Shown here piece by piece: positions 13,757-53,259 of a stretch of 57,220 nt of DNA. The notes beneath the pieces were generated by a model, which was given only the letters and a program-made list of their open reading frames with translations, was not told the DNA's origin and searched no databases. Each line of letters begins with the position of its first letter. Position 1 is the first letter of the stretch. The DNA is from Bacteroidales bacterium (GTDB lineage Bacteria; Bacteroidota; Bacteroidia; Bacteroidales; UBA932). Both the position numbers and the translations under genes were made by a program. Where the stretch lies: the NCBI GenBank assembly GCA_017437125.1, contig JAFSBV010000005.1:1-57220 (forward strand). The letters run 5' to 3'.

Positions 13757-13863
13757 ATTAGCAACGTAAATCATTTATAATCAACCGATTGCTGCATAAC
13801 CCTGCTGTCCCCGCCATGCAGGGTTATAGCGTATATCACTAATTGTCAGGCGGTTGCATTGCT
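13757..13863 (+). repeat. family A hairpin repeat, copy 2 (3' flank of RAYT 1)
   Basis: The core AACCCTGC-N12-GCAGGGTT (13798-13825) has TGTCCCCGCCAT in the loop. It is flanked by a GCAACGTAAA left end and a right end reading GGTTGCATTGC. The stop codon of the RAYT gene (13839-13841) lies inside this copy, so gene and repeat are physically fused. Confidence 0.85.
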
Positions 13864-14777
13864 CTCAAGCATAGAAACTTCTCGATCTGTCTCATGGAAG
13901 CGGACGTCTTTTGACGCAACTGCTGGGCGATTTCCAGCTTCATCGCTGGTGGAAGGATGGTGACTCTCCTGACCGGCACTATCTGACACTCATTTCTTAC
14001 AACTCTGATCATATCACGATAAACACTGTCTGGTTCCGGATGATACATCTCACGGATATCATGATCTGCACCGGATGTTGACTTCATGGCATGGAACATA
14101 TCCTCACAGCTTTCATAAAACGACAAAAGAGTCTTGGTGTCAAATGGCCAATACTGTCTGATGATATAATCCGTAAGATAGTCCTTTTCATCATTGTCCA
14201 GACGCGCAAACATACGTCCAAGCTGAGCATATGTCAGATATTCATTCTTTCTCCTGCTGCTTCTGACTTCCTGCATGACTTTTCTTAACCTGTTGCTGCA
14301 CAGATTCATAGGGACGGCTTTGGAAAAGGGATTTGCATTGCATATATAAGCCAGGAAATCCCATCTGTACTCCGGTGCATTGCCGCATAACTGCTTTTCG
14401 ACCGGGTTGTTGCCGATATAGACTATTGTCGAGCGTATCTTCTTGCCGCCTTTCTTTGGTGCACTTCCAAAGCTCTTGTGGAACAAAGGTCCATGTCTGC
14501 CCAGACTATGATTATATTCCAGAGCATATTGAGAAGAATAATGCCGGACAAATGAGCTTATCTGCTCCAATGATTCAGCCGACAGCAAAACATGAATGTG
14601 ATCAATCATCAGGCATAGCTCCAGTACGCACACATCGTATAGCCGGGATATTACAGAAAAGATTGTAAAGAAGACTATGAAATCTTCACGATCATAAAAA
14701 ATATTGAATCCAGACACCGTTCTCTGATAGATGTGCATACATTCGCCTGAAAAGAACTTCCTTTTTCTATACTTCAT
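13839..14777 (-). CDS. REP-associated tyrosine transposase (RAYT 1), Y1_Tnp/HUH family
   Basis: This 312-residue protein is a single-strand DNA nuclease of the IS200/RAYT type. The HUH motif is IDHIHVLL (His60, His62), and the likely catalytic Tyr120 lies in IVYIGNNPVEK. The C-terminal 30 residues (KLEIAQQLRQKTSASMRQIE) look like a DnaA-type helix-turn-helix, typical of Bacteroidetes RAYTs. A GTG-initiated extension to 14804 would begin inside the flanking repeat; the ATG at 14777 is preferred. Family A repeats lie at both ends, both in the same orientation relative to the gene. RAYTs are known to act on the palindromic repeats around them and are usually not self-mobile. This one looks intact. 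Confidence 0.88.
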   Translation of the reverse strand: MKYRKRKFFSGECMHIYQRTVSGFNIFYDREDFIVFFTIFSVISRLYDVCVLELCLMIDHIHVLLSAESLEQISSFVRHYSSQYALEYNHSLGRHGPLFHKSFGSAPKKGGKKIRSTIVYIGNNPVEKQLCGNAPEYRWDFLAYICNANPFSKAVPMNLCSNRLRKVMQEVRSSRRKNEYLTYAQLGRMFARLDNDEKDYLTDYIIRQYWPFDTKTLLSFYESCEDMFHAMKSTSGADHDIREMYHPEPDSVYRDMIRVVRNECQIVPVRRVTILPPAMKLEIAQQLRQKTSASMRQIEKFLCLRAMQPPDN

Positions 14778-14792
14778 ACAACTCTTCTTTTT

Positions 14793-14902
14793 GCAGTGCA
14801 ACACAACTTACTACCCCTCAAGCAGTTAGCTCACAACCCTGCTGTCCCAGCCATGCAGGGTTATACGATAACTGTTTGAAAATAAGCAGAATACGTTGCA
14901 CA
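14793..14902 (+). repeat. family A hairpin repeat, copy 3 (5' flank of RAYT 1)
   Basis: The core AACCCTGC-TGTCCCAGCCAT-GCAGGGTT lies at 14835-14862. The left end is GTGCAACACAACTT, the right end GAATACGTTGCAC, so the terminal GTGCAA/TTGCAC sequences are inverted. The start of the RAYT gene abuts this copy. The following stretch (14903-15080) is AT-rich with no gene; it contains AAAGAAAAATGTGACGAATT, which recurs near 18364. Confidence 0.85.
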
Positions 14903-15080: not shown

Positions 15081-15183
15081 AGCGCAATCTATTGACAGAC
15101 AGTAACTTAACGGAAAACCCTGCATGGCGAGAACAGCAGGGTTTCATCAAAAGTCACTAAAAATCAGAGAATTACATTGCTCT
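15081..15183 (+). repeat. family A hairpin repeat, copy 4
   Basis: This copy is in the opposite orientation to copies 1-3: core AACCCTGC-ATGGCGAGAACA-GCAGGGTT at 15116-15143. The ends are AGCGCAATCTATTG and ATTACATTGCTCT. It lies just downstream of the radical SAM gene. Confidence 0.8.
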
Positions 15184-16876: not shown

Positions 16877-16983
16877 AGTGCAACGTATTTTATTGATGTT
16901 CAGGCGATTAAACACTAACCCTGCATGGCTGGGACAGCAGGGTTTGGCAACAACCATCTGATTATCAGGACATTAAATTGCTC
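16877..16983 (+). repeat. family A hairpin repeat, copy 5
   Basis: The core AACCCTGC-ATGGCTGGGACA-GCAGGGTT (16917-16944) matches the consensus loop. The left end GTGCAACGTATT and right end AAATTGCTC show the inverted termini. It lies between the divergent nitroreductase and C40 peptidase genes. Confidence 0.83.
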
Positions 16984-32609: not shown

Positions 32610-32885
32610 ATGAACCTTAGAGTTTTTAAGAAAGACATCGAGTATTTCGTTGGTGAATTCATTGATGATTGCGCTCTTTTCGTTGCGCTCAACCCACACA
32701 AGGATGCTGACGAGATTGCACAGATAATCGACGAGGCTGTGGACCTTTACAACGACCTCAAGCAGCGCTCAAACCATCCTGAGGGAAACAAGAGGGCTTT
32801 CTACAATGGTCTTACAAAGGAGATGTTCGAGAAGCTCGACACTCTCTGCGAGAAGCTCAGCGCAGTGGTTTCAAAGCAGGCGTAA
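32610..32885 (+). CDS. small conserved protein of unknown function
   Basis: This 91-residue acidic, helical protein has no signal peptide or membrane segment. Visible features are DIEYFVGEFIDDCALFVALNP near the start and KRAFYNGLTKEMFEKLDTLCEKLSAVV at the end, giving a coiled-coil or helical bundle. Similar short proteins are common as single genes in Bacteroidales, but no function is known to me. It has its own promoter and a clear hairpin terminator, so it is a stand-alone transcription unit. Codon use is even and GC-balanced, like the housekeeping genes and unlike the AT-richer pilus genes before it. Confidence 0.85.
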   Translation: MNLRVFKKDIEYFVGEFIDDCALFVALNPHKDADEIAQIIDEAVDLYNDLKQRSNHPEGNKRAFYNGLTKEMFEKLDTLCEKLSAVVSKQA

Positions 32886-33062: not shown

Positions 33063-33423
33063 CCCGTTGAGCGGGGAATTCCGCATTCGAGACGCTCACC
33101 CGCTCATCGGTGTCCATTTCATACCCGTTGAGCGGGGAATTCCGCATTCGAGACGCTCACCCGCTCAATGGCACCAAAAGTCCACCCGTTGAGCGAAGAA
33201 TTCCCCAGCCCAAACTTCTAACCGCTCATCAGGACCAAGTCCCCATCCCCACCCTTTGAGCGGAAATCTATTCATTCAAGACTTCCAGCCACTCAACGGT
33301 GTCAATTTCATACTCGTTGAGCGAAGAATTCCGCATTCAAGACGCTCATCCGCTCAACGGAACCAAAACTCACCCTTTGAGCGGCGGGAAAGGATTTAGC
33401 ACAATTTTTTCCGCTCAACGGGT
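33063..33423 (+). repeat. family B hairpin repeat array, left (six units)
   Basis: Six tandem units begin at 33065, 33126, 33187, 33254, 33315 and 33375. Each is a ~47-bp imperfect hairpin with arms CCGTTGAGCGG and CCGCTCAACGG, separated from the next by 12-15 bases, giving a period of about 61. The interior sequence is similar between units (AATTCCGCATTCGAGACGCT in units 1, 2 and 5); unit 6 has a different interior that matches the second subtype of the right-hand array. All units are in the same orientation. The stretch 32977-33062 contains no gene. Confidence 0.9.
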
Positions 33424-33554
33424 ATAAAGATTTGGATATAAGCATCTGATTTATAACCTTTGCAACAGACTTCTGATTCCACTTGAGGGTCTGGGTGGAG
33501 GGTGAGGAGTGAGTTTGAGTTGCAGACCCGAGTGTCTAAAGATTGAGGAGAAGG

Positions 33555-34433
33555 ATGAGGACAGAAGATCAAAATGGATTCTTCCATGTATGTACAAACG
33601 GTACAGTTCTGCCATGGATGTTTAAAGACAATGAAGATTTCATCTTCGGCATCACCCGTATCGGTATATGCTGCTTGCTGACAGACATATCCGTATTGGT
33701 TTATACGTTAATGGACAATCATGCCCATTTTCTTCTTTATGGAACAAAAAAGAACTGCCGGAAATTCATCAATAAATATAAACTTCTGACCGGCAAGTGG
33801 GTGTCACACAAATATGGAATATCCAAATATCTGAAACGACTTCCTGTGTCAATCATACCGTTAAAGACAGAAGAAGATATTCTTGAGGCTGCGGTTTACA
33901 TTGACAGGAATGCAATCATGGCTGGTTTTACCGGAATGCCTTATGAATATCCATGGAGTTCTTGCAGTCTGATGTTCAGGAAATCAGCAGACAAGTCTTG
34001 CAGATGGAATATAATCAAGGACTTCACAAGAAATGAGCTTCGAGGACTTCTCAAAAGTAGAGTCAAGTTTCCGGAAGACTGGTCATTCGATGATAATGGA
34101 ATGTTGAATCCTCTGTGTTTTACTGACATAAACAGAATTGAACGGATTTTCAAGAGTCCGGCCAGATACCTGTTTTACCTTGTAAAGAAACTGGAAGGAA
34201 AGATCAATCAGACGTTAGAGGAGCATGATAGGCCATTTGTTTCCGACAAGGATCTTAGGGATATCGCCTCAGATATGGCTGTTCAGACCTATGGATCAAA
34301 AGACATCAGAACCTTGAATGTCAAGTCTCGTCTGATAATTGCCAGAAAGCTTAAAAATGATTATGCTTCTTCGACCAAACAATTATCCAGGGTGTTGAAT
34401 CTCGATGCTTCAATCTTGAAAGATTTCATTTAA
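33555..34433 (+). CDS. REP-associated tyrosine transposase (RAYT 2), Y1_Tnp/HUH family
   Basis: This 292-residue protein has the HUH motif MDNHAHFLLYG (about residues 53-63) and the catalytic Tyr in AAVYIDRNAIMAGF (about 116), close to the Y-I-x-R-N-P pattern of Y1 transposases. The C-terminal 30 residues (KLKNDYASSTKQLSRVLNLD) again look like a helix-turn-helix. It shares family and layout with RAYT 1 but little obvious sequence. The ATG at 33555 is preferred over a TTG at 33543. A weak promoter (TTTG near 33431, AACCTTTG near 33456) lies in front. Family B repeats are on both sides, so it probably acts on or arose with them. Confidence 0.86.
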   Translation: MRTEDQNGFFHVCTNGTVLPWMFKDNEDFIFGITRIGICCLLTDISVLVYTLMDNHAHFLLYGTKKNCRKFINKYKLLTGKWVSHKYGISKYLKRLPVSIIPLKTEEDILEAAVYIDRNAIMAGFTGMPYEYPWSSCSLMFRKSADKSCRWNIIKDFTRNELRGLLKSRVKFPEDWSFDDNGMLNPLCFTDINRIERIFKSPARYLFYLVKKLEGKINQTLEEHDRPFVSDKDLRDIASDMAVQTYGSKDIRTLNVKSRLIIARKLKNDYASSTKQLSRVLNLDASILKDFI

Positions 34434-34482
34434 GGAAGCCTGATTTATATCCACAGAGCTGAATCTATCAGGTTACCGTTTG

Positions 34483-35076
34483 TCCGTTGAGCGGAGATCT
34501 TGCCAGCAGGGATTTGCACCCGCTCAATGGTGCAAAGCTCTCACCCGTTGAGCGGAGGGAAGGATCTCGCACTAATTTTTGCGGCCAACGGGACAAACCT
34601 GAAAACGTTGAGCGGAGATCTTGCCAGCAGGGACTTGCACCCGCTCAATGGCGCAAAGATCCAACCCGTTGAGCGGAGGGAAGGACCTCGCACTGAATTT
34701 TGCGGCCAACGGGACAAACCTGGAAACGTTGAGCGGAGATCTTGCCAGCAGGGACTTGCACCCGCTCAATGGCGCAAAGTTCCCACCAGTTGAGCGGAGG
34801 GAAGGATCTCGCACTGAATTTTGCGGCCAACGGGACAAACCTGGAAACGTTGAGCGGAGATCTTGCCAGCAGGGACTTGCACACGCTCAATGGCGCAAAG
34901 TTCCCACCCGTTGAGCGGAGGGAAGGATCTCGCACTGAATTTTGCGGCCAACGGGACAAACCTGGAAACGTTGAGCGGAGATCTTGCCAGCAGGGACTTG
35001 CACCCGCTCAATGGTGCAAAGCTATCACCCGTTGAGCGGAGAATCCATCAATCGAGCCCCCGAGCCGCTCAATGGC
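34483..35076 (+). repeat. family B hairpin repeat array, right (ten units, 121-bp dimers)
   Basis: Units start at 34484, 34546, 34606, 34667, 34727, 34788, 34848, 34909, 34969 and 35030. Two subtypes alternate: one with interior GAGATCTTGCCAGCAGGGAC and one with GAGGGAAGGATCTCGCACTG, so the array is four ~121-bp dimers plus two single units. The dimers are almost identical, which points to recent amplification or homogenisation. Arms are again GTTGAGCGG and CCGCTCAA or the weaker CGGCCAACGG. Apparent reading frames of 60-100 codons across the array are a by-product of the repeat. A short CCTGAT/ATCAGG hairpin lies just before it (34446-34472). Confidence 0.92.
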
Positions 35077-35346: not shown

Positions 35347-36426
35347 CTATTTCCCCGCCAGGTATTTCTCCCAGGCCCAGGCCGAAGCCAATGTGTCCTC
35401 CACAGAACGTTCCGCCTTCCAGCCGAGTTCCTCGTTTGCGAGACTGGTGTCAGCCCAGATGGCCACGACATCACCCGGACGGCGTGGAGCGAACTTATAG
35501 TTCAGTTTCAGGCCGTTGACCTTCTCGAAGGCAGTCACGAGCTCGTGTACCGAAACAGGACGACCTGTTCCGACATTGAAGATCTCATAGCCTTCCTTCA
35601 TCCTGCCGTCTATCATTCTTGAGACAGCCGCCACATGAGCCTTGGCAAGATCCACGATGTCGATATAGTCACGGAGACATGTTCCGTCCTCGGTCGGATA
35701 GTCGTTGCCGAAGATGCTGAGGCACTCGCGCTTACCTATGGCTGTCTGAGTTATGAACGGTACGAGATTATTAGGCACACCGCGCGGAAGCTCTCCGATC
35801 AGTGCTGACGGATGGGCTCCTATAGGGTTGAAATAGCGGAGGGCGATTCCCTTCACCGGGCCCTGACCGCCGGCAGCAACTCCGGCATCGGAATCACCGG
35901 CACCGCCAAAGCCCGCTGTAGCCAGCACCACATCCCTGAGGATATCCTCGCACATCTGCTTTGTGTTTCCGTATGGAGAGGTAGCCGGCAGACGAGGAGT
36001 CTGTTCAGTCACAGGAAGATCCTCCGCCTCGCCATAAACAGTAGCCGATGATGAGAAGAGGACATTGCATCCTCCATGATTCTTTGCCGCCTCGAGAATA
36101 TTGAGGAAAGAGACGAGGTTGTTCCTGTAGTACATGATAGGCTCGGCAACCGATTCACCGACTGCCTTGAAGGCCGCGAAATGAATGACAGCATCTATGC
36201 CCTGCTCATCGAACAACCGTGTAACAGCCTCATAATCACAGCAATCTATCTGATAAAAAGGTATATCATCACGACCGGTGATCTTCTTGACACCCTCAAA
36301 ACATGTCATATCGCAGTTGGACATATTGTCCGCAACAACCACTTCATAGCCTGCCCCTATAAGCTCGACTGTAACATGGCTGCCGATATAGCCGGCACCG
36401 CCGGAAACAAGAACTCTCTTTGCCAT
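35347..36426 (-). CDS. galE: UDP-glucose 4-epimerase
   Basis: GalE interconverts UDP-glucose and UDP-galactose for capsule, LPS and galactose metabolism. The 359-residue protein begins with the NAD-binding motif VSGGAGYIGSHVTVELIGAG and has the catalytic pair in SSSATVYGE and SPYGNTKQMCE (Y-x-x-x-K replaced in the usual GalE way by YGNTK). The C-terminal part has DGTCLRDYIDIVDLAKAHV and FNVGTGRPVSV. A -7 element TATATTTG lies at 36454-36461. A short Gly/Ala-rich insertion (about 170-185, AGFGGAGDSDAGVAAGGQG) is unusual for the family. It diverges from dacB. Confidence 0.95.
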   Translation of the reverse strand: MAKRVLVSGGAGYIGSHVTVELIGAGYEVVVADNMSNCDMTCFEGVKKITGRDDIPFYQIDCCDYEAVTRLFDEQGIDAVIHFAAFKAVGESVAEPIMYYRNNLVSFLNILEAAKNHGGCNVLFSSSATVYGEAEDLPVTEQTPRLPATSPYGNTKQMCEDILRDVVLATAGFGGAGDSDAGVAAGGQGPVKGIALRYFNPIGAHPSALIGELPRGVPNNLVPFITQTAIGKRECLSIFGNDYPTEDGTCLRDYIDIVDLAKAHVAAVSRMIDGRMKEGYEIFNVGTGRPVSVHELVTAFEKVNGLKLNYKFAPRRPGDVVAIWADTSLANEELGWKAERSVEDTLASAWAWEKYLAGK

Positions 36427-53173: not shown

Positions 53174-53215
53174 GTCTGGGTGGAAGAGGTGAGGGTCTGC
53201 GGTGAAGTTCTCGGC

Positions 53216-53259
53216 GAGGTTCTGCTGTGAGGTTCTGCTGTGAGGTTCTGCTGTGAGGT
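53216..53259 (+). repeat. 13-bp tandem repeat, 3.4 copies
   Basis: GAGGTTCTGCTGT is repeated directly at 53216, 53229 and 53242, followed by a partial copy. It lies between the deformylase gene and the tRNA genes. The rest of 53174-53472 shows no gene. The neighbouring GGTCTGGGTGGA also occurs upstream of RAYT 2 (near 33489). Confidence 0.85.

Follow-up and report, generated by a model that had tools for sequence, protein, structure and literature searches.

Single-stranded hairpins are the substrate of the TnpA_REP and IS608 enzymes known so far. Among the described systems, the closest to the locus analyzed here are the RAYTs (TnpA_REP) with their REPINs in Pseudomonas fluorescens SBW25 and E. 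coli, for which the cited parts of the papers describe a single-copy HUH/Tyr enzyme with cognate inverted repeats that both adjoin the gene and are dispersed (PMC3116915, PMC6006769). Several RAYTs per genome, each with its own repeat and with tandem clusters adjoining, are likewise known (PMC3116915, PMC6006769, PMC8266576), and in SBW25 three RAYTs adjoin tandem REPIN clusters, the REPIN type differing from one RAYT to the next (PMC3116915). TIRYTs are RAYT-like too, but their inverted repeats are of another kind and come in dimers or groups (PMC3733652); TIRYT/TIRtron and the TnpA_Y1 of subclass 2.1 are described as having a long C-terminal extension, flanking non-REP inverted repeats in dimers or groups and sometimes a dispersed family (PMC3733652, PMC6006769). 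For subclass 2.1, no REP-like sequences were reported by Quentin et al., and helical spacing goes unmentioned in the cited parts of these papers (PMC3733652, PMC6006769). The spacing rule described below is a strong functional clue to how RAYTs move or use their repeats and to why genomes keep them.

The window, that is, the whole analyzed stretch of 57,220 nt from a Bacteroidales bacterium, carries the RAYT-B gene at 33543..34433 on the plus strand, encoding 296 aa from TTG 33543 or 292 aa from the probable ATG 33555. The initial annotation had placed this gene between six upstream and ten downstream palindromic units, which was confirmed. The upstream array (33063..33422) consists of six units, each with an 11-nt arm, a variable stretch of ~25–26 nt and a second 11-nt arm, at a spacing of 60–61 bp except for one 67-bp junction (33186 to 33253), while the downstream array (34483..35076) contains ten units arranged as five pairs with a double period of 121 bp. 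The arms are CCGTTGAGCGG/CCGCTCAACGG, and the basic unit of the array is a palindrome pair, namely two palindromes in tandem that provide four alternating inverted sites. The double period equals 11.6 turns, so that the helical phase drifts along the array. Both the pair unit and the helical spacing had been missed in the first reading. A CRISPR-like array was considered in view of the variable stretches of fixed length, and was dropped as successive units face opposite ways and a Y1 gene lies between them. Upstream of RAYT-B lies a small conserved gene (32610..32885, plus strand), a homologue of which occurs in the fetched locus of 8/16 other orthologues, and on the other side is a galE-like gene (35347..36426, minus strand), whose homologue adjoins the RAYT in 8/16 other orthologues. 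Elsewhere in the window, at 53188–53259, there is a 13-bp tandem repeat, GTGAGGTTCTGCT, in 5.5 copies.

A fold search showed that RAYT-B has the Y1 HUH fold, including the two His and the single Tyr, and its model closely matched the structure of TnpA_REP with a REP hairpin. Residues H56, H58, Y115 and N119 (numbered from 33555) were invariant in 17/17 orthologues; the Y---NP motif was incomplete, as N119 was present in all 17 but NP in only 5/17, the window protein having NA. RAYT-B scored 19.4 bits against NCBIfam REP_Tyr_transpos, below the 80-bit cut-off, and 33/33 members of set A2 matched this family at E<=0.1. Where TIRYT/subclass 2.1 enzymes carry a C-terminal helix-turn-helix domain, the RAYT-B model has helices at residues 231–246, 256–269, 274–281 and 285–291; the fold search, in which matched rows span residues 1–205, gave no identification for this helical domain, and weak Pfam HTH matches were found in 5/33 members (E 0.03–0.08). 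Searches of the protein against PHROGs gave no match, and a sequence search of the PDB gave nothing useful.

RAYT-B thus resembles the RAYT/REPIN systems in its single-copy HUH/Tyr enzyme, in its adjoining and dispersed inverted repeats, including pairs dispersed without the enzyme at seven sites, as in REPINs, and in the low copy number with divergent copies (nine divergent genes in the genome) that is found in class 2 TnpA_Y1. It differs from RAYT/REPIN in that the B arms showed neither a GTAG nor a GTGG foot adjoining a short hairpin when the array and the dispersed sites were read by eye, in the long inter-arm stretch that is variable but fixed in length, in having the palindrome pair as unit, in the whole-turn spacing, and in its seven dispersed sites rather than hundreds of copies. 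With TIRYT and subclass 2.1 it shares the features listed above, but unlike in TIRYTs, no GGGGWSAS was seen by eye in the B arms (CCGTTGAGCGG and variants). The likeness to IS200/IS605 lies in the Y1 HUH fold and the palindromes on both sides; the multiple near-identical copies of those mobile elements were not found, as the B gene gave one match per genome in 17/17 at E<=1e-55. The B system has RAYT/REPIN anatomy, yet its NP motif is incomplete, its NCBIfam score is below the cut-off and no GTAG foot was seen. RAYT-B is best explained as a domesticated, vertically kept REP-type Y1 transposase with a cognate non-autonomous repeat.

B-type enzymes, 43–65% identical to that of the window, occurred in 17/400 congener genomes. 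The full pair with four alternating inverted sites was present on both sides in 14/17 orthologues, G381 and G326 showed three of the four sites on each side, and G223 only the upstream element, so elements stood on at least one side in 17/17. Sites in the orthologues were spaced S-25-S, with S values of 36/37 or 48/49; the values 37 and 49 are combined in a single element of G339. The arms of distant orthologues were unrelated, e.g., CCGTTGAGCGG, CCACTGAGCGG, CCGATGAGCAC, CCTTAGGCCAC and CCTTGGAACAC. Neighbours that are galE- or dacB-like were common to the window and 9/16 other orthologues, and none was found in the fetched stretches of 7 orthologues at 43–48% identity. At one orthologous locus (L088, 6100–6620, in G024), a second array adjoins the B-type RAYT, with CGACACACC every ~72–93 bp, which does not resemble the B arms.

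The exact pattern GTTGAGCG-N24..44-CGCTCAAC was found in 16/400 genomes, 9/17 with the B enzyme vs. 7/383 without it (Fisher p 3.7e-10, relatedness ignored), and none of the listed genomes matched the reversed control pattern. Five of the seven pattern-positive genomes without the enzyme are 61–83% complete, and the others 89% (G043) and 95% (G432). These results uphold the earlier claim that the palindrome goes with the enzyme: neither are B repeats widespread in genomes without a B-type RAYT, nor are B-type homologues without such elements. The 52 B elements examined (from 56 listed forward places, of 108 counted, after removal of an exact duplicate and of three G209 copies that were nearly identical) comprised 29 of 43–44, 22 of 54–56 and one of 46 in length, within an allowed range of 40–60. 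The jump between the two length classes is 11–12 bp, slightly more than one helical turn.

The window probably comes from the genus Candidatus Cryptobacteroides, as the locus of congener G053 is duplicated in the named record L194. The genome of the window (2.8 Mb, 99 contigs, 90.9% complete) contains nine RAYT-like genes, the other eight being 23–26% identical to B. An own palindrome word at score >=6 was found for 6/9 of them: TCCGTAAAA, AGCGAAGCG, CACGAAGTA, TCACTAGAA, GCAGGGTTA (family A) and CGCTCAACG (B). Two different RAYT/palindrome pairs within one window, as initially proposed, were therefore supported, but a genome with just two such systems was not borne out. The decamer CGTTGAGCGG occurred 27 times in the genome, 13 of them within the array, and the 14 others were assigned to seven sites, each with two palindromes ~61 bp from each other, and to three isolated matches that look like chance. 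No RAYT lies within the intergenic space of the pair at these seven sites (on C32 a RAYT is ~2.7 kb away), and two of them, on C62 and C74, have flanks in common. The idea that clustered arrays set this family apart from scattered REPs elsewhere was thus not supported as stated, as B is also scattered as single pairs, and REPIN clusters have been published for SBW25 (PMC3116915).

The spacing was then assayed beyond the B type, by searching the 650-nt flanks of 110 discovery RAYT loci for 9-mers that the two flanks share and that occur in both orientations. A score of >=6 was obtained in 66/110 loci vs. 0/330 shuffles, and among control placements in real DNA away from RAYTs, 6/60 reached this score and 1/60 had a repeated period. 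The discovery periods were 51–53, 61–62, 71–74 and 82–84 bp. Period bins, covering 13/41 integers (32%), were fixed before the held-out loci were fetched; 26 and 58 new loci brought the total to 194, after 7 of 33 Bacteroidales loci, and also L266 and L296, had been dropped as duplicates. A repeated period was found in 67/194 loci, with 62 different arm words, and 62/67 periods were near 52, 62, 72, 83 or 104 bp, i.e., 5, 6, 7, 8 or 10 helical turns. In the 48–88 bp range, 42/45 discovery loci and 17/18 held-out loci fell in the bins, or 14/14 of the held-out loci at <60% identity. The remaining 127/194 loci had no repeated period or a score <6, and include all 29 held-out A-type loci, many of which have one short palindrome per side.

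The pooled loci at <60% identity gave R=0.79 at 10.5 bp (n=50; 0/20,000 uniform draws), with the best period at 10.4 bp, and a scan over all periodicities gave 0/300. At <40% identity, the pooled values were R 0.76 and scan p=0.003 (n=19), with p=0.063 for the discovery loci alone and p=0.57 for the held-out loci alone (n=6), while single-linkage clustering at 45% identity left 19 clusters, 14 of them with repeats, and scan p-values of 0.021 (n=19) and 0.18 (n=14). Stricter identity thinning of related loci thus weakens the periodicity signal. The class means were 51.9, 61.5, 72.3, 82.8 and 104.0 bp, with class assignment here and for the tree using 70–74 and 103–105, wider than the prefixed bins; a fit of 10.33 n + 0.08 is descriptive only, as it uses the 62/67 loci already sorted into classes. 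Exceptions to the classes were L033 (88), L172 (86), L152 (70), L290 (99/49) and L293 (49), as well as the 67-bp junction in the window. In L290 and L293, the site order is direct, direct, inverted, inverted, with sites 49–50 bp apart, which breaks the spacing rule. L275 (39 bp) is outside the 45–115 range of the Rayleigh test; its sites are ~71 apart by eye, the shorter value being caused by a near-palindromic word. Among more distant Y1 relatives with approximate gene starts (L219–L265, mostly of other phyla, three of Bacteroidales), a period was found in 0/47 and a score >=6 in 6/47.

These results indicated that, despite changing letters, the spacing of the palindromes is kept to whole B-DNA turns across numerous RAYT families of the Bacteroidales studied. 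Such a helical spacing rule for RAYT repeats was not found in the open-licence literature, among the matches listed. The nearest parallel in geometry is the Paramecium IES with the domesticated transposase PiggyMac, where substrate lengths follow a 10.2-bp helical repeat that was read as a bending constraint in the cited part of the paper (PMC3520747); enzyme and organism are unrelated to those of B, and the analogy concerns geometry only.

Proteins bend A-tract DNA, and in the variable stretch of B elements, A/T-rich and G/C-rich segments alternate about once per turn, with p-values that are overstated because of the common ancestry of the elements. This alternation suggests a wrapped or bent duplex, and the whole-turn spacing maintained despite changing letters points to recognition of the repeats as an intact duplex. 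Arm words were shared by 70% of RAYT pairs at 60–90% identity, 38% at 50–60% and 3–4% below 50% (r 0.29 between sharing and identity, 0/2,000 permutations), and because the arm words follow RAYT identity, the RAYT itself may be the binding protein.

We propose, from these sequence comparisons, that these RAYTs, or a partner, act on the intact duplex, binding paired sites along the same helix face and mobilising the pair. The sites would be read in double-stranded DNA, and the RAYT or its partner would occupy those on one helix face and bend the DNA between them, so that selection would act on spacing and not on letters. The HUH/Tyr active site would then cut at the outer arms once single strands become available, the pair would be moved or copied, and duplicated pairs would give rise to the arrays that adjoin the gene. 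Taken as a whole, a domesticated RAYT with phased palindrome pairs, duplex reading and mobilisation of the pair is the best explanation, in which our confidence is evenly balanced. More tentatively, and short of probable, a large Bacteroidales RAYT branch may recognise repeats in duplex form, as multi-site complexes in helical phase, with geometry alone conserved; the recognised letters would then turn over almost fully by ~50% protein identity, giving many mutually blind enzyme/repeat pairs per genome. If true, this would be a duplex-reading, assembly-controlled mode within a family whose known substrates are single-stranded hairpins. A single purified protein and naked DNA suffice to test a spacing rule that persists through full turnover of the repeat letters; the rule also offers a route to cognate repeats that share no sequence similarity, and the many natural enzyme/repeat pairs provide material for learning how recognition changes.

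An ordinary REPIN/REPtron, in which RAYT-B recognises single-stranded arm hairpins and the spacing is merely inherited, indels being rare in short elements, is unlikely. It would account for the close structural match to the TnpA_REP hairpin complex and for inverted-repeat pairs, dispersal and a single-copy enzyme like those described for REPINs (PMC3116915), and the period class is indeed inherited along the RAYT tree, with 16 changes vs. 34.7 in shuffles. However, inheritance leaves unexplained that these 16 changes land on whole turns, and also the jumps of 11–12 bp with the same arm word inside one locus, found in five loci (L061 and L294, both 72/83; G339, 61/73; L268, 82/93; L172, 75/86). 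Moreover, loops of 26–40 nt are long for hairpins, and self-pairing of the stretch between the arms, measured as mirror complementarity, was not beyond column expectation, despite fold energies slightly below those of shuffles (z -0.53 +/- 0.27 for the short class and -0.26 +/- 0.22 for the long class). On this mirror complementarity, each palindrome as a plain stem-loop was rejected. A long single hairpin, with outer arm pairing with outer and inner with inner, was rejected as a general structure owing to unequal halves, 37/49 in G339 and 56/44 at G021 C11; within a single element the half lengths can be about one turn apart, so the halves need not pair with each other.

It is still less probable that the phased pair is bound by a host regulator or architectural protein, with the RAYT only mobilising it. 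The alternation of A/T-rich and G/C-rich segments each turn is what a bending protein would favour, and known BIMEs bind host proteins, according to the cited part of the paper (PMC2817692), but the arm words follow RAYT identity and differ among the nine RAYTs of one genome, and a shared factor would not need 62 different arms. Very improbable is that the pairs are operators for self-repression of the RAYT, with the dispersed copies as relics: pairs flank the gene, but they are equally present downstream of it and at the seven RAYT-less sites. Repressor site pairs on one DNA face are common. An analysis artefact, in which the word search picked up chance repeats and the classes are a few related families, is the least probable and already disfavoured, in spite of the 6/60 control placements and the two 45% single-linkage p-values, by the discovery score against shuffles, the single repeated period among controls and the bins fixed before the held-out loci.

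The movement of the pair in the proposed mechanism was evaluated in G209, where the exact pattern stands at 21 places, many of them nearly the same inside. The sequence that copy L338 has in common with the others begins at the left outer arm (10/10 comparisons), and that of L336 ends at the right outer arm (8/10, the other two reaching contig ends). These borders fit, short of proof, a movement of the pair that may be bounded by its outer arms. Most G209 copies share longer flanks, so that the pair is not the sole unit copied, and larger units are copied too. Across L326–L339, the B pairs lie inside larger repeats of mosaic make-up that have several kinds of border; L338 is near a tRNA-Val and a tmRNA gene, and L336 near a tRNA-Ser.

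The family A system of the window, outside the B system, served as comparison. Its RAYT is at 13839..14804 on the minus strand, and its palindrome, AACCCTGC-N12-GCAGGGTT, is at 13798..13825, with others at 503–530, 14835–14862, 15116–15143 and 16917–16944. The genome has 23 such palindromes, with a 12-nt loop in all of them though 6–18 was allowed, and the half sites look modular, with GCATGG, GCTGTC, GCCTTC and GCCGTC on either side. At L341 (G000:C3:9500-28500), family A palindromes are ~2.5 kb apart along seven ABC-transporter-permease-like paralogues (named by eye), all of which have the start MKSYLRFLSRNKLYTAIEVVGLS in common.
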